32,124 nt of DNA from an uncultured Faecalibacterium sp. (GTDB taxonomy: Bacteria > Bacillota > Clostridia > Oscillospirales > Ruminococcaceae), in assembly GCA_944385995.1 (NCBI GenBank), contig CALWZL010000020.1, positions 1-32,124 of the forward strand. The letters are read 5' to 3'. The translations under genes were made by a program, and so were the position numbers. Positions 25,793 through 29,302 of this stretch are shown one piece after another. Below the pieces are notes generated by a model. That model was not told the DNA's origin, made no database searches, and saw only the letters and a list, made by a program, of their open reading frames with translations. Positions within the stretch are counted from its first letter, which is position 1. The number at the start of each line of letters is the position of its first letter.

Positions 25793-26089
25793 AAAAAACT
25801 CCCGTCCTCGCGGGGAACAATGCCCTGCAAGGACGGGAGCAGAATACTTCCGTGGTACCACCTTGGTTCGCCGGCTCCTCACGGGGCACGGCCTCGATGC
25901 TGCATTCCGGTGAAAACGCCGGATACAGCCGGACGCAGTAACGGGCGCACCCGGCACAGACTCAAAAATTTCGCCTGTGCGGCTCCGAGACCATCTTCAG
26001 CGCCCCGATGCCTGCCCGGTTTCACCGCCGCGGGCTCTCTGCAAGGATCGCAGAACGCTTACTCTTCTCTTCACAGCCGATTGTATATC
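25793..26089 (-). ncRNA. T-box riboswitch, methionine-specific
   Basis: Read on the minus strand, stem I carries the GCAGAGAG bulge and a GGCGGTGAAA apical region. The specifier loop reads GAAG-AUG-G (AUG at 25994-25992), methionine. The T-box core AAGGTGGTACCACG is at 25864-25851. Its UGGU pairs with ACCA, fitting A73 of tRNA-Met. A 10-bp terminator stem (25830-25839 with 25799-25808) is followed by T6. All parts agree with control of metG. Confidence 0.94.
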
Positions 26090-26095
26090 ATGGTT

Positions 26096-26124
26096 ATTAT
26101 AGGAGAAGCGGTGCTGTTTGTCAA
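26096..26124 (-). promoter_or_regulatory. Promoter of the metG T-box
   Basis: TTGACA (26124-26119) and TATAAT (26101-26096) are exactly 17 bp apart: a consensus promoter on the minus strand. Confidence 0.93.
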
Positions 26125-26191
26125 CAGGGGATTTGCCCGCCCGAAAAAATCCCGCCCTTCCGTGATGTCCGGGGCAGGGGAGAGGCAAAAC

Positions 26192-26238
26192 AAAAAACCT
26201 GGCGGATGAGAGCGGTTGCAAGCCTCTCATCCGCCAGG
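26192..26238 (-). terminator. Terminator of the large ncRNA
   Basis: A perfect 15-bp stem (26224-26238 with 26198-26212) has an 11-nt loop and, on the minus strand, a tail TTTTTTGTTTTG. It is a textbook intrinsic terminator and belongs to no recognised gene. Confidence 0.95.
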
Positions 26239-26471
26239 ATGCTTACTTCTTCGGAGTCATAGCCTCTTTACCTCACATTGCCTATTTTTCGGAGTTGACC
26301 TCGCCTTTCATAGTGTTGGCCTTCCTTATGCTTTAGGAAATGATAGGGTAGGGGATCGCCGATTTAACTAGTACATTGGTTTCAAGCCTCATCCGAATCG
26401 TTGGATTGCGTCTTACGAAGGACCTTCATAGAAACACATTCTCTCGATTGAATCACTCCAGGGGACAAGTT

Positions 26472-26574
26472 ACCTAAATCATTGGAGTACTCCCTCCGTG
26501 TTACTCAAATATCTGCATCCATACAGGGACTTTCATGGGGGATCATCCTCTCAGGGGTGCGAATCTATTTGAAT
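26472..26574 (-). repeat. Duplicated RNA domain, downstream copy
   Basis: This copy shares a 40-nt block (26472-26511) with 26971-27011 at about five differences and one indel. Its closing helix is TATTTGAGT/ATTCAAATA (26503-26511 with 26566-26574). It contains the self-complementary decamer GGAGTACTCC (26484-26493). Confidence 0.85.
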
Positions 26575-26970
26575 GACCGTTGCTCGGATAGGGGATTATT
26601 CAGCTTAAAAATGTTACCTCGCAGCACTTTTTTGGATTTGATCTCTGGGAAACGGTGTTGTGCAAATCTTCCGGCTTCCAGTGCATTGTACCTCGATCCT
26701 GTCGATGCTTCGATGGGGCACATCGCCGCCGATCAAGCCAATGGATCTTTTCTCCTGCCTGCAATTTCCAGATGGATTCGGGCCCTGTACAGCAACTCTC
26801 ATTGGAATTACCTTTTACAGTTTCTTTCTCCTCCAAATTGACACCTTGCAGGGAACTGATCTGCCTTCCGCCCTAGCTTCCGGCACTTTTGATCGATCGA
26901 ATGCAGGTCCAGCCTACCTTGCTGTGCATCATTTCCGATCTGGTTTTGCGTTTGCCTTGAGGCCACGACT

Positions 26971-27069
26971 ACTTAAATCATTGGAGTAGCTCCTTCCGTG
27001 CTATTCAAATACTGGTATCCGTAAAAAGGCTTTCATCATATGAATCACTTCCTGCGGATCTATTTGAAT
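26971..27069 (-). repeat. Duplicated RNA domain, upstream copy
   Basis: The closing helix TATTTGAAT/ATTCAAATA (27003-27011 with 27061-27069) is perfect, with an inner helix ATCCG/CGGAT. In the other copy the equivalent inner pairs are U-G and G-U, so both copies can fold alike. Spacing between the copies is close to 500 bp. Confidence 0.85.
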
Positions 27070-27195
27070 TGCCAAGGGGTTTCTCGACAGACTGTTCGTA
27101 AATCGCTTTTATATGCTAAAGACTTCGCTTTTAAATCTTTTAGATTTTACTGTATGCGGGGGAAACATCCCGTTCTGGTAAGCGGCTTTTCGCTT

Positions 27196-27246
27196 TCAGC
27201 AATTCCCGACAGTCTGTCCGAACTGTGCGGGTGTCGTATCAACCAT
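27196..27246 (-). CDS. Possible 16-codon ORF near the 5' end of the large RNA
   Basis: ATG 27246 follows AAAGGAG (27262-27256) by 9 nt, and a second AAAGGGAG lies just before it. The peptide would be MVDTTPAQFGQTVGNC. The ORF overlaps one arm of the long-range helix (27209-27218), so translation could alter folding. It may equally be chance; no family is recognisable. Confidence 0.3.
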   Translation of the reverse strand: MVDTTPAQFGQTVGNC

Positions 27247-27329
27247 CGGTCTTCGCTCCTTTCTCCCTTTAAGTCAGCGGGGTTGGATCACCTTTGATCC
27301 TCTGCTGTACTTTCTTGGTTTCTGGCTAT

Positions 27330-27358
27330 AGTATAGCCGAAAAGGCAGCCGCTGTCCA
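27330..27358 (-). promoter_or_regulatory. Promoter of the large ncRNA, with palindromes
   Basis: TGGACA (27358-27353) and TATACT (27335-27330) are 17 bp apart. A perfect palindrome GGCTATA-G-TATAGCC (27324-27338) covers the -10. An AGAATCC-ACAA-GGATTCT inverted repeat (27364-27381) lies just upstream of the -35, followed by an AT-rich tract. Both are candidate operators. Confidence 0.72.
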
Positions 27359-27445
27359 TTCGCAGAATCCACAAGGATTCTATGGATATTTTATATAGAT
27401 TTAACATTATATGTTGATATATTCTTGTCAAATTGGCGCATGACA

Positions 27446-27480
27446 GGCAAAACAAATCCCCGCACCCACCGGCGCGGGGA
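27446..27480 (-). terminator. Terminator of argS
   Basis: TCCCCGC (27457-27463) pairs with GCGGGGA (27474-27480). The minus-strand tail is TTTGTTTTGCC. It lies 7 nt after the argS stop. Confidence 0.85.
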
Positions 27481-27487
27481 AAAGGGA

Positions 27488-29302
27488 TTACATCTTGTCG
27501 GGGACGTTGATCTTGAACATGGTCAGAACGTTGCGGATCACGTTGCGTACGCCGATGCACAGGGCGATGCGGGCCTGCTGCAGGGCGGGATCTGCGCCCT
27601 GGATGCGGCAGCTGCCATAGAACCGGTGGAATGCACTGGCCAGATCGATGACAAAGCGGTTGATCCGGCTGGGATCGTACTTTTCAGCGGCCAGGACGAT
27701 TTCCTGGGGGAAGGCGGCCAGCATTCGGATCAGATCCAGCTCGGCGGGATCGGTCAGAAGGGTGGCGTTGGTGTTTTCCACACCCAGGAACTCGACGCCT
27801 TCGCCGGCCAGCTTCCGCAGGATGGAGCAGATCCGGGCGTGGGCGTACTGGACATAGTAGACCGGGTTGTCGTTGTCGGTCTTGACGGCCTGATCCAGGT
27901 CGAAGTCGATGCTGCTGCCTGCCTCGTGCATATTGAAGAGAAAGCGTGCGCTGTCGATGGGCACTTCCTCCAGCAGATCGGTCAGGGTGATGGCATTGCC
28001 GGTCCGCTTGGACATACGGACGGGCTGGCCGTTCTGCATCAGATTGACCATCTGCATCAGGACCACATCCAGGCGGCTGCCGTCCAGACCGATGGCGTCC
28101 ATGGCGCCTTTCATACGGGCGACGTGGCCGTGATGGTCGGCGCCCCAGACATCAATGGCCTTGTCAAAGCCGCGGTCGGACAGCTTGTTGTAGTGGTAGG
28201 CAATATCGGCGGCGAAATAGGTCGGGATGCCGTTGGCGCGGACCAGAACCTCGTCCTTGTCCTCCTCGACGCCGTCGTCGGATTTTTTCTTGTTGGCGGC
28301 GCCGTATTTGGCGGCATACTGGGCGCTGCGGTACATAATGGCGCCGTCCTCAGCCTTGTAGCAGGCACCCTTTTCCAGCAGCTGATCCACAACATGTTTG
28401 ACTGCGCCGGAGGCGTGCAGGGTGCTTTCGGGGAACCAGACATCGTACTGAATGCGGTACTTGCCCAGGTCGGTCTTGAGGGCCGCGATGTTCTTGGGCA
28501 GGGCGTAGCCCACCAGGGCGTCCTTCAGGGCACCGAAGGCCTCGCTCTCATAGAGGGCGTCGTCCTTCAGGCCGCGGCAGGGAGCGGCGTACTTGTCACC
28601 CTCCTTGGCGGCAAATTCCAGAGCCAGCAGGGTGATGTCGCCGCCCTGGTAGCACTCCTTGGGGAGGGGATATTCACGCTCGTCGTAGTAGTGCTGGAGG
28701 TACCGGATGGCAAGACTCTTGCCGAACTTCTGGATCTGGTTGCCGGCGTCATTGATATAGAACTCGCGGGTCACGTCATAGCCGGCCCATTCCAGGACGG
28801 CGGCCAGGCAGTCGCCCAGTGCACCGCCGCGGGCATTGCCCATGTGCATGGGGCCGGTGGGATTGGCGGAGACGAATTCCACATTATAGCGCTTGCCCTG
28901 ACCGTAATCGGTCTGACCGTAATGGGTGTTGGAACAGGCAGCCATCACCACCCCGGCCCAGAAAGAGGGGGCCAGGAACAGGTTGATAAAGCCGGGACCG
29001 GCGGTTTCAGCCTTGGCAAAACAGCTGCCGCTGAGAGAAGGCAGATGTGCCAGGATGGCCTCGGCGATCATTTTGGGGGCCTTGTGCCAGGTGCGGGCGC
29101 CGGCCATGGCGAGGTTGGAAGCAATGTCTCCGTTTTTGGTGTCGGCGGGGACCTCCACAATGAAGGCCGGCAGGTCAGCCGCAGGCAGATCGCCGGCATC
29201 CATGGCGGCCTGAGCGGCCTGGGTCAGCAGGGCGCGGGCCTCGGCCAGAGCAGCCTGGCGGGGGTTGTAGTTCTCGAAAGCGGGGTAGGTTGCGTTGTTC
29301 AT
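27488..29302 (-). CDS. argS: Arginyl-tRNA synthetase
   Basis: This 604-aa class I synthetase has an N-terminal Add-1 domain, HMGN (153-156) as the HIGH signature within ANPTGPMHMGNARG, the MSK loop at 430-432 (VRMSKRTGN) and a C-terminal DALR anticodon-binding helix bundle. ATG 29302 follows AAAGGA at a rather long spacing. It is 53 nt after the DUF1934 gene with no promoter or terminator between, so it is the last gene of the ddl operon. Confidence 0.97.
   Translation of the reverse strand: MNNATYPAFENYNPRQAALAEARALLTQAAQAAMDAGDLPAADLPAFIVEVPADTKNGDIASNLAMAGARTWHKAPKMIAEAILAHLPSLSGSCFAKAETAGPGFINLFLAPSFWAGVVMAACSNTHYGQTDYGQGKRYNVEFVSANPTGPMHMGNARGGALGDCLAAVLEWAGYDVTREFYINDAGNQIQKFGKSLAIRYLQHYYDEREYPLPKECYQGGDITLLALEFAAKEGDKYAAPCRGLKDDALYESEAFGALKDALVGYALPKNIAALKTDLGKYRIQYDVWFPESTLHASGAVKHVVDQLLEKGACYKAEDGAIMYRSAQYAAKYGAANKKKSDDGVEEDKDEVLVRANGIPTYFAADIAYHYNKLSDRGFDKAIDVWGADHHGHVARMKGAMDAIGLDGSRLDVVLMQMVNLMQNGQPVRMSKRTGNAITLTDLLEEVPIDSARFLFNMHEAGSSIDFDLDQAVKTDNDNPVYYVQYAHARICSILRKLAGEGVEFLGVENTNATLLTDPAELDLIRMLAAFPQEIVLAAEKYDPSRINRFVIDLASAFHRFYGSCRIQGADPALQQARIALCIGVRNVIRNVLTMFKINVPDKM

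Follow-up and report, generated by a model that had tools for sequence, protein, structure and literature searches.

The segment between argS and the T-box leader of metG in an uncultured Faecalibacterium raises the question of what kind of gene it represents. An earlier note on this DNA had regarded it as a discrete gene for a large structured non-coding RNA, possibly of a new class. In the window, as we call the whole stretch of 32,124 nucleotides that was analysed, the segment is discrete and structured, and it occurs in a single copy in its own genome (88% complete), the terminator palindrome excepted. The designation non-coding is probably wrong, since the segment carries a conserved series of tiny open reading frames (ORFs). 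Its features, all on the minus strand and given in the direction of the predicted transcription, are as follows (SD, Shine-Dalgarno sequence):

27330..27364, minus: promoter, TGCGAATGGACA-17-TATACT with an extended -35 motif, kept in the genus
26192..27323, minus: the whole element (inferred transcript), which 7 other genomes share over its full length with 84-91% identity
27285..27300, minus: 5' hairpin GGATC..GATCC; both sides have changed in 2 of its 5 pairs (14 short-form sequences)
27196..27246, minus: ORF1, 16 codons, MVDTTPAQFGQTVGNC; SD AAGGAG at a spacing of 9
27209..27218, minus: 5' arm of the long-range helix, inside ORF1; 10 bp
27086..27095, minus: 3' arm of the long-range helix; 10 bp with 27218-27209
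27001..27039, minus: ORF2a, 12 codons, MMKAFLRIPVFE; pairing is possible between its 3' end (27011-27003) and 27069-27061
26973..26981, minus: dipeptide ORF ATG ATT TAA (M-I); SD AAGGAG, 19 nt past the ORF2a stop
26564..26959, minus: expansion, about 400 nt long, seen in the 1.1-kb form and without a conserved ORF; limits approximate
26501..26536, minus: ORF2b, 11 codons, MKVPVWMQIFE, in the second copy of the unit (from the repeats and the ORF listing)
26474..26482, minus: dipeptide ORF ATG ATT TAG (M-I), 18 nt past the ORF2b stop
26382..26429, minus: ORF4, 15 codons, MKVLRKTQSNDSDEA, read by eye; without a clear SD, the weakest member, with counterparts in relatives
26368..26376, minus: dipeptide ORF ATG TAC TAG (M-Y), 5 nt past the ORF4 stop; SD GAGG within the end of ORF4
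26282..26311, minus: penultimate ORF, 9 codons, MKGEVNSEK; all 43 rows (35 distinct) retain the frame
26243..26260, minus: last ORF, MTPKK-stop, 21 nt past the preceding stop and a few nt before the terminator stem
26192..26238, minus: intrinsic terminator, 15-bp stem and T6; arms 26198-26212 and 26224-26238, 15 nt, 100% complementary

Boundaries, relatives and neighbourhood

The element is richer in A+T than its surroundings, as had been noted earlier, with a G+C content of 0.44-0.51 against 0.57-0.61 in its neighbours (500-nt windows). The homologues that the earlier note had suggested collecting are readily recovered by BLASTN: among 100 genomes, including its own, 29 matched, namely 28 of the 31 members of the genus and one g13 genome, the three genus members without a match being 77-83% complete. 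They fall into several size forms, of about 1.1 kb (8, the window's included), 621-641 nt (17), 860 nt and 915 nt, with L030 at about 750 nt. The 1.1-kb form contains a second copy of an internal unit along with the expansion, and the repeated domains described earlier correspond to direct repeats at 26471/26970 and 26558/27053 (spacing 499 and 495).

Both the promoter-like sequence and the terminator claimed for the element are present. The core promoter TGGACA-17-TATACT (27358-27330, minus strand) is, as a consensus match alone, at chance level (3 sites vs 1.7 +/- 1.3 in shuffles). The extended motif TGCGAATRGACA-17-TATAAT, searched as TGCGAATRGAC-N-TATANT with the positions of the sites compared to the BLASTN matches of the element, is found in 20 of the 31 genus genomes, as a single site in each, always directly upstream of the element and with identical spacing; the reversed control pattern does not occur in these 31 genomes. 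A near variant, TCTGCCAATAGACA, is seen in four of the 11 genus genomes that are without the exact match. Across 394 genomes of the order the pattern yielded no clear case outside the family: it matched only G007 (Faecalibacterium) and G678 (with a 13-nt spacer), the latter being at chance level as the reversed control gave 5 matches in the same genomes. We regard the extended -35 motif as a dedicated control site, possibly for a dedicated regulator. At the other end, the terminator stem covaries, with changes on both sides in 7 of its 15 pairs (14 short-form sequences); it was not listed by our terminator scan because its loop of 11 lies outside the limit of the scan.

The element is flanked by argS on one side and by the metG T-box (26083-25826, minus strand) on the other. 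The T-box leader itself (26124-25826, minus strand) scores 98.4 bits in Rfam and is preceded by a perfect TTGACA-17-TATAAT promoter; in L030, metG follows the array and the Rfam search of the relatives did not report a T-box there. We compared the neighbours at 41 loci by tblastn with three proteins of the window, an approach adopted because neighbouring ORFs picked by length were often spurious (that earlier collection also omitted L052, L066-L069 and L071). An upstream argS is found in 19 of the 41 loci, a few of which are the same genome twice and several of which have too little upstream DNA to tell; they include the 1.1-kb-form and rumen Faecalibacterium, Gemmiger and g13. A downstream metG on the same strand is seen at many Faecalibacterium loci, at L043 and at one Gemmiger locus (L044), while the F. 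prausnitzii loci mostly have other neighbours. As metG is not a constant neighbour, the unit is independent of a fixed downstream gene.

The earlier note could not match the segment to a known RNA class, and a search of Rfam bears this out: nothing reached the gathering threshold, the matches in 26050-27500 having E values of 1.3 or worse (limit 10). Among 11 relatives, searched at E values up to 0.1, we recovered a T-box and a low-scoring match outside the L010 element; one match at the terminator end of L011 had 27.9 bits against a gathering threshold of 111. Hence, a known Rfam RNA was set aside for the window and these relatives. A hidden long protein gene on either strand was likewise discarded, in agreement with the earlier view that there is no credible long ORF. 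The element has six ORFs of at least 60 aa, none of which is intact at full length in all 7 close relatives (one plus-strand frame, 27040-27297, does remain open in 2 of the 7, L004 and L009), and a Pfam scan of five of the six gave no match above the cut-off, with one weak match at E 0.048. However, a test for a long conserved protein misses the array because its ORFs are so short (2 to about 17 codons).

Tiny ORFs and their translation signals

In the window the chain of tiny ORFs comprises 16, 12+2, 11+2, 15+2 and 9+5 codons, and nearly all of them are led by an SD. Using 500 dinucleotide shuffles as the background, we find 8 SD-led ORFs of up to 20 codons in the window element against an expectation of 2.47 +/- 1.57 (2/500 as high), and 0 on its reverse strand. 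Such an excess, with at most 3 of 500 shuffles as high, is seen in 13 of the 15 elements tested; it is weak in L028 (6/500) and in copy B of g13 (31/500). Within the 32-kb window, the element holds 8 of the 16 SD-led ORFs of this size on the minus strand and 0 of the 18 on the plus strand, and all three SD-led dipeptide ORFs of the minus strand fall in the element, which makes up 3.5% of the sequence.

The dipeptide ORFs have the layout of two-codon minigenes, i.e. an SD-led ATG-codon-stop. The element regions (24.9 kb of distinct sequence) contain 67 distinct cases, which are not independent events as the elements are related, and 0 on the reverse strand; the flanks, with 434 kb of distinct sequence on both strands, contain 14. 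The flank control excludes duplicates and, in g13, the neighbouring array copy; L052 was kept out of the counts, and L043 and L071, which are 3' ends alone, out of the dipeptide count. The element sets overlap between our collections, with duplicates removed by identical sequence context alone. In the elements the second codon is NNY in 67 of 67 cases (TAC 49, ATT 10, ATC 3, TTC 3, AAC 1 and TGC 1) as against 3 of 14 in the flanks; TAC is absent from the 14 flank cases and TAT never appears in the 67 of the elements. All three stops are in use (TAG 36, TAA 26, TGA 5). A restriction of the second codon to NNY would be consistent with tRNAs that carry G or queuosine at position 34.

A further sign of coding is seen in the penultimate ORF, where the length of an A4/A5 run and the distance of the ATG co-vary and the frame closes in every one of the 43 rows, with TAA, TAG and TGA all used; 35 of the rows are distinct over the two last ORFs, and the A4/A5 changes represent far fewer events than 43. 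For ORF1, 23 sequences give a pN/pS of 0.73 in frame, and of 0.89 and 1.30 in the two alternative frames; the in-frame value is not far under 1 and only slightly below the other two. Thus, coding conservation is evident for starts, stops and frame and weak for the amino acids: the peptides of ORF1, ORF2 and ORF4 differ strongly between genera, with similar lengths.

A comparable chain of ORFs can be followed through the relatives. In F. prausnitzii an ORF1 of the type MVDMEPAQ..Q.VG.R is followed by an ORF ending in ..FE, M-Y, a further ORF and M-Y or MYS, and the 3' end has an ORF such as MKRLLRK or MKRTVQTEK and then MTPKK. Gemmiger displays MANFKDPIHHRRAWAC, an ORF like MKATTPPNRIILNFT, M-Y, mostly an ORF of 3-4 codons, MTMSKQSEK or similar, and MTPKK, which is thus common to both genera, with synonymous CCG/CCA changes. 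A g13 genome (L029, 690-1160 and 1440-1950) has two diverged tandem copies of the array, each with a promoter and a terminator, reading MFSDTTPAQNGRLGSC, MYQHFKDFREI, M-Y, MKMPFGTDRK and MTPII in one and MFSDTTPAQQRRLGYC, MYRILKYLLEF, M-Y, MKMPFGTDRK and MTPIG in the other; a second g13 genome (L073) likewise has two copies. In g26 (L074) we find MVIEEPVQFWQDGTCR, M-Y, M-C, MYDEKVVLMKRFKSI and M-Y, and in g143 a promoter, MKSEEPVQFWQVCAD, MVRANLPPNNI, M-Y, MTFKVQSEK, M-Y, MKPII and a terminator (the second and last ORFs read by eye). In g86 (L043, L071) the last two ORFs alone are visible before the contig ends. L027 repeats a pair of units twice, with one start being TTG (by eye).

The exact size of the ORFs is not essential, as L028 has lost the ORF1 stop, giving 22 codons, the longest ORF read, and some dipeptide ORFs have grown to 3-5 codons (MYS, MNS, MYQS, MHTSS). 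The constancy of ORF1 length in our counts is in part built in, since an ORF1 entered the collection only with a length of 15-16 codons and an R or C at its end; L028 (22 codons) and g143 (15, with a final D) lie outside it. Most rows from Faecalibacterium, Gemmiger and g13 have 18-20 nt between the ORF2 stop and the dipeptide start, and L026-L028 and L030 have 15-16 nt; the ORF4 stop and its dipeptide ORF are 16 or 12 nt apart in the short forms and 5 in the window. Taken together, it is very likely that these ORFs constitute a translated array, a view that derives from the comparison of sequences.

Besides Faecalibacterium and Gemmiger, arrays are found in four other genera of the family, in one of these as the 3' end alone. 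A pattern for the 3' end, which required MTPKK and hence under-samples its variants, matched 34 named contigs: 21 of Faecalibacterium, 10 of Gemmiger and one each of Subdoligranulum, Oscillospiraceae and Prevotella. The last, a Prevotella MAG contig (L052), has the MTPKK pattern inside coding-like sequence without a surrounding array and is probably a chance match. The sequence of genus g88 resembles that of the named Gemmiger loci. A 3'-end model (R1), built from 21 sequences, matched 27 of 396 family genomes at an E value of 0.01 or better. One weak match, in g143 (E about 6e-5), has the rest of the array upstream; of six R1 loci examined, L098, L102, L105 and L106 have arrays, L107 has none and L104 no clear one, and the remaining weak matches were not counted as members. 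Overall, the family-wide searches place the array in few of the 126 genera sampled. The dipeptide pattern GAGGCTNNGANNCCAATGTACTRA, which proved too narrow, matched only G055 (g26) among 394 genomes of the order. In two Gemmiger loci (L044, L102) a long expansion separates the M-Y ORF from the penultimate ORF, marking another site of array growth. An RNA of a mobile element was also considered and rejected: in narrow tests, the 3'-end pattern was unmatched in viral contigs and the short-form L013 in phages and plasmids.

Fold of the predicted RNA

The 10-bp long-range helix proposed earlier is present, with one arm inside ORF1. The 3' half of ORF1 has its best partner 80-97 nt past the stop in 30 of 33 records, 235-238 nt past it in two g26 records and elsewhere in L010. 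The mean energy of this duplex is -27.6. Swapping in the tails of other groups gives -22.4 +/- 3.6 (622 swaps, 8% as low as -27.6), and shuffled tails average -20.9 (2.4% as low). In 27 aligned Faecalibacterium rows, 95.2% of the cells are paired against 23-41% in slid controls, both-side changes occur in 15 cells (shuffles, 4.9 +/- 1.8), and the covariation score is 0.196 against 0.132. Counted by pairs, those with changes on both sides (3 vs 1.6 in shuffles, 68/500 as high) and the further pair types (11 vs 10.7, 256/500 as high) are not above chance, and one column is unpaired in 8 of the 27 rows. Between genera the letters of the helix change and its position stays. Apart from the terminator, this predicted helix has the strongest support of any part of the fold, judged from these alignments.

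A second predicted stem closes on ORF2, whose last codons and stop lie in the 3' arm. Most rows from Faecalibacterium and Gemmiger show this stem clearly and several others do not; no more than 2 of 50 shuffles are as good in 31 of the 67 rows. This amounts to partial support, as several of the rows are wrong ORFs picked by the script (MIPHESPCMDADI, MCFYE..). The many local hairpins described earlier fare modestly: RNAalifold on 14 short-form sequences (a set excluding L023, L024 and L028) yields few covarying stems.

Role, alternatives and known systems

The comparisons support the conservation of the promoter, the terminator, the starts, stops, frames and SD sites, and of the putative covarying helix that spans ORF1. 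Hence, the element is probably an independently transcribed and structured polycistronic "micro-mRNA", in which paired tiny ORFs are laid into stems. Given that the peptides are weakly constrained while the ORFs retain their start and stop, their SD and their small size, the act of translation, rather than the peptides, appears the better candidate for its function, and a sensor or brake of the translation state is the most likely role, as opposed to a source of peptides. We propose that the element would be transcribed and translated, with ribosomes loading on an RNA in which a short ORF of 2-5 codons comes after a longer one (about 9-17 codons) in each pair, and in which almost every ORF has a ribosome-binding site of its own. 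After terminating on the longer member of a pair, a ribosome might start again on the short one, which begins 12-21 nt downstream (5 nt in one case in the window). The translating ribosome would open stems, including the ORF1 helix, such that the fold of the RNA is remodelled, while repeated fMet-X-stop rounds on strong SDs could occupy ribosomes, initiator tRNA and the NNY-reading tRNAs, in the way reported for two-codon minigenes. A brake acting specifically by such minigene cycling is rather doubtful. A somewhat better case, though still a tentative one, can be made for a new class of translation-operated RNA gene, a folded array of paired tiny ORFs that would meter translation capacity and act in trans.

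These considerations have to be weighed against other readings. A structured non-coding RNA of a new ornate class, in which AUGs and stops are by-products of motifs like GGAG..CUCCAAUGUACUAAG, would accommodate the covarying helices, the lack of a long ORF intact in all relatives and the weak amino-acid constraint. GGAG and CUCC near many dipeptide starts can pair (by eye), and structure overlapping the ORFs can itself conserve letters, e.g. CCAATG. However, the use of three stops, NNY in 67 of 67 cases, the frame closing in 43 of 43 rows and a near-constant SD spacing are unexpected of an RNA motif, and in g143 the sequence is different and the order of the ORFs the same; we therefore deem this reading unlikely. 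It is also improbable that the peptides themselves act as tiny effectors or signals (e.g. MTPKK or fMet-Tyr), the array being a polycistronic peptide gene: MTPKK kept with synonymous changes and the pN/pS of 0.73 in ORF1 speak for it, but the ORF1, ORF2 and ORF4 peptides diverge between genera and dipeptides are low in information.

The stop of MTPKK a few nt from the terminator stem, together with a metG often downstream on the same strand, brings to mind a cis-acting leader, where ribosomes at the last ORF would determine whether the terminator is read through into the following gene, e.g. metG. Yet several F. prausnitzii and most Gemmiger loci are without an adjacent same-strand metG, g13 is followed by an epimerase-like gene on the opposite strand and g26 by a racemase-like gene (both named by eye), and metG in the window has its own promoter and T-box; accordingly, we hold attenuation in cis to be very improbable. 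A metG attenuator in particular was rejected, as the synteny is not fixed and no constant main ORF lies downstream. Finally, the many AAGGAG and GAGG motifs, some of them in possible hairpins (by eye), might be taken for the repeated GGA motifs of a CsrB-type sponge for a CsrA-like protein. That would seem scarcely credible, since GGA motifs alone would not preserve AUGs, stops and frames. A CsrB/RsmZ sponge was also dismissed because CsrA (PF02599) was not found in the element's own genome (88% complete), with 3 of 14 control genomes being matched. We therefore retain an array whose translation is its function as the preferred reading. If correct, it would be a type of gene that slips through annotation, being too short for protein callers and too coding for RNA libraries, in carriers that include bacteria of the human gut. 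Chains of dipeptide ORFs would then become directly testable as a gauge or brake of translation, and clusters of SD-led ORFs of 2-17 codons would provide a search rule for others.

Among known systems, the element resembles OLE, GOLLD, ROOL and other large bacterial RNAs (PMC12286853) in being large, structured, independent and phylogenetically restricted; it differs in having no match at the Rfam gathering threshold, with relaxed matches at chance level only, and in its array of tiny ORFs. With leader-peptide attenuators it shares an SD-led short ORF overlapping a stem near a terminator, but it has many ORFs and no fixed downstream gene. The uORF and sORF candidates from GC-IGR surveys are alike in that start and stop codons are conserved in structured intergenic RNA, the sORF class also being without a consistent downstream gene; the examples in the accessible portions of these papers (PMC11109978, PMC8632094) differ in having one short ORF per motif, mostly regulating a neighbour, and no array. 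The main text of PMC11109978 does not mention Faecalibacterium, Ruminococcaceae, Oscillospir- or Gemmiger, nor does that of PMC8632094 mention Faecalibacterium, Ruminococcus, Oscillospir- or Subdoligranulum. We found no comparable free-standing folded array across genera in Rfam or in our searches of the open-licence PMC literature (as distinct from preprints). Hence, while tiny ORFs and two-codon minigenes are each known, a free-standing, terminated and folded array of them appears to be new.

The closest parallel is offered by minigenes and natural mini-ORFs, which, in the sections available of one account, are SD-led ORFs of 2-6 codons whose effects come from translation and reinitiation and not from the peptide (PMC8708949). 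There, bacterial growth is reported to be inhibited, by way of peptidyl-tRNA, by two-codon minigenes that have a strong SD; minigenes of this length are the most toxic, and a strong SD and reinitiation add to the toxicity. The cases it describes are synthetic or occur as one or two per leader acting on a downstream gene. In contrast, the element in the window pairs three dipeptide ORFs with longer tiny ORFs on what would be a free-standing, terminated RNA.
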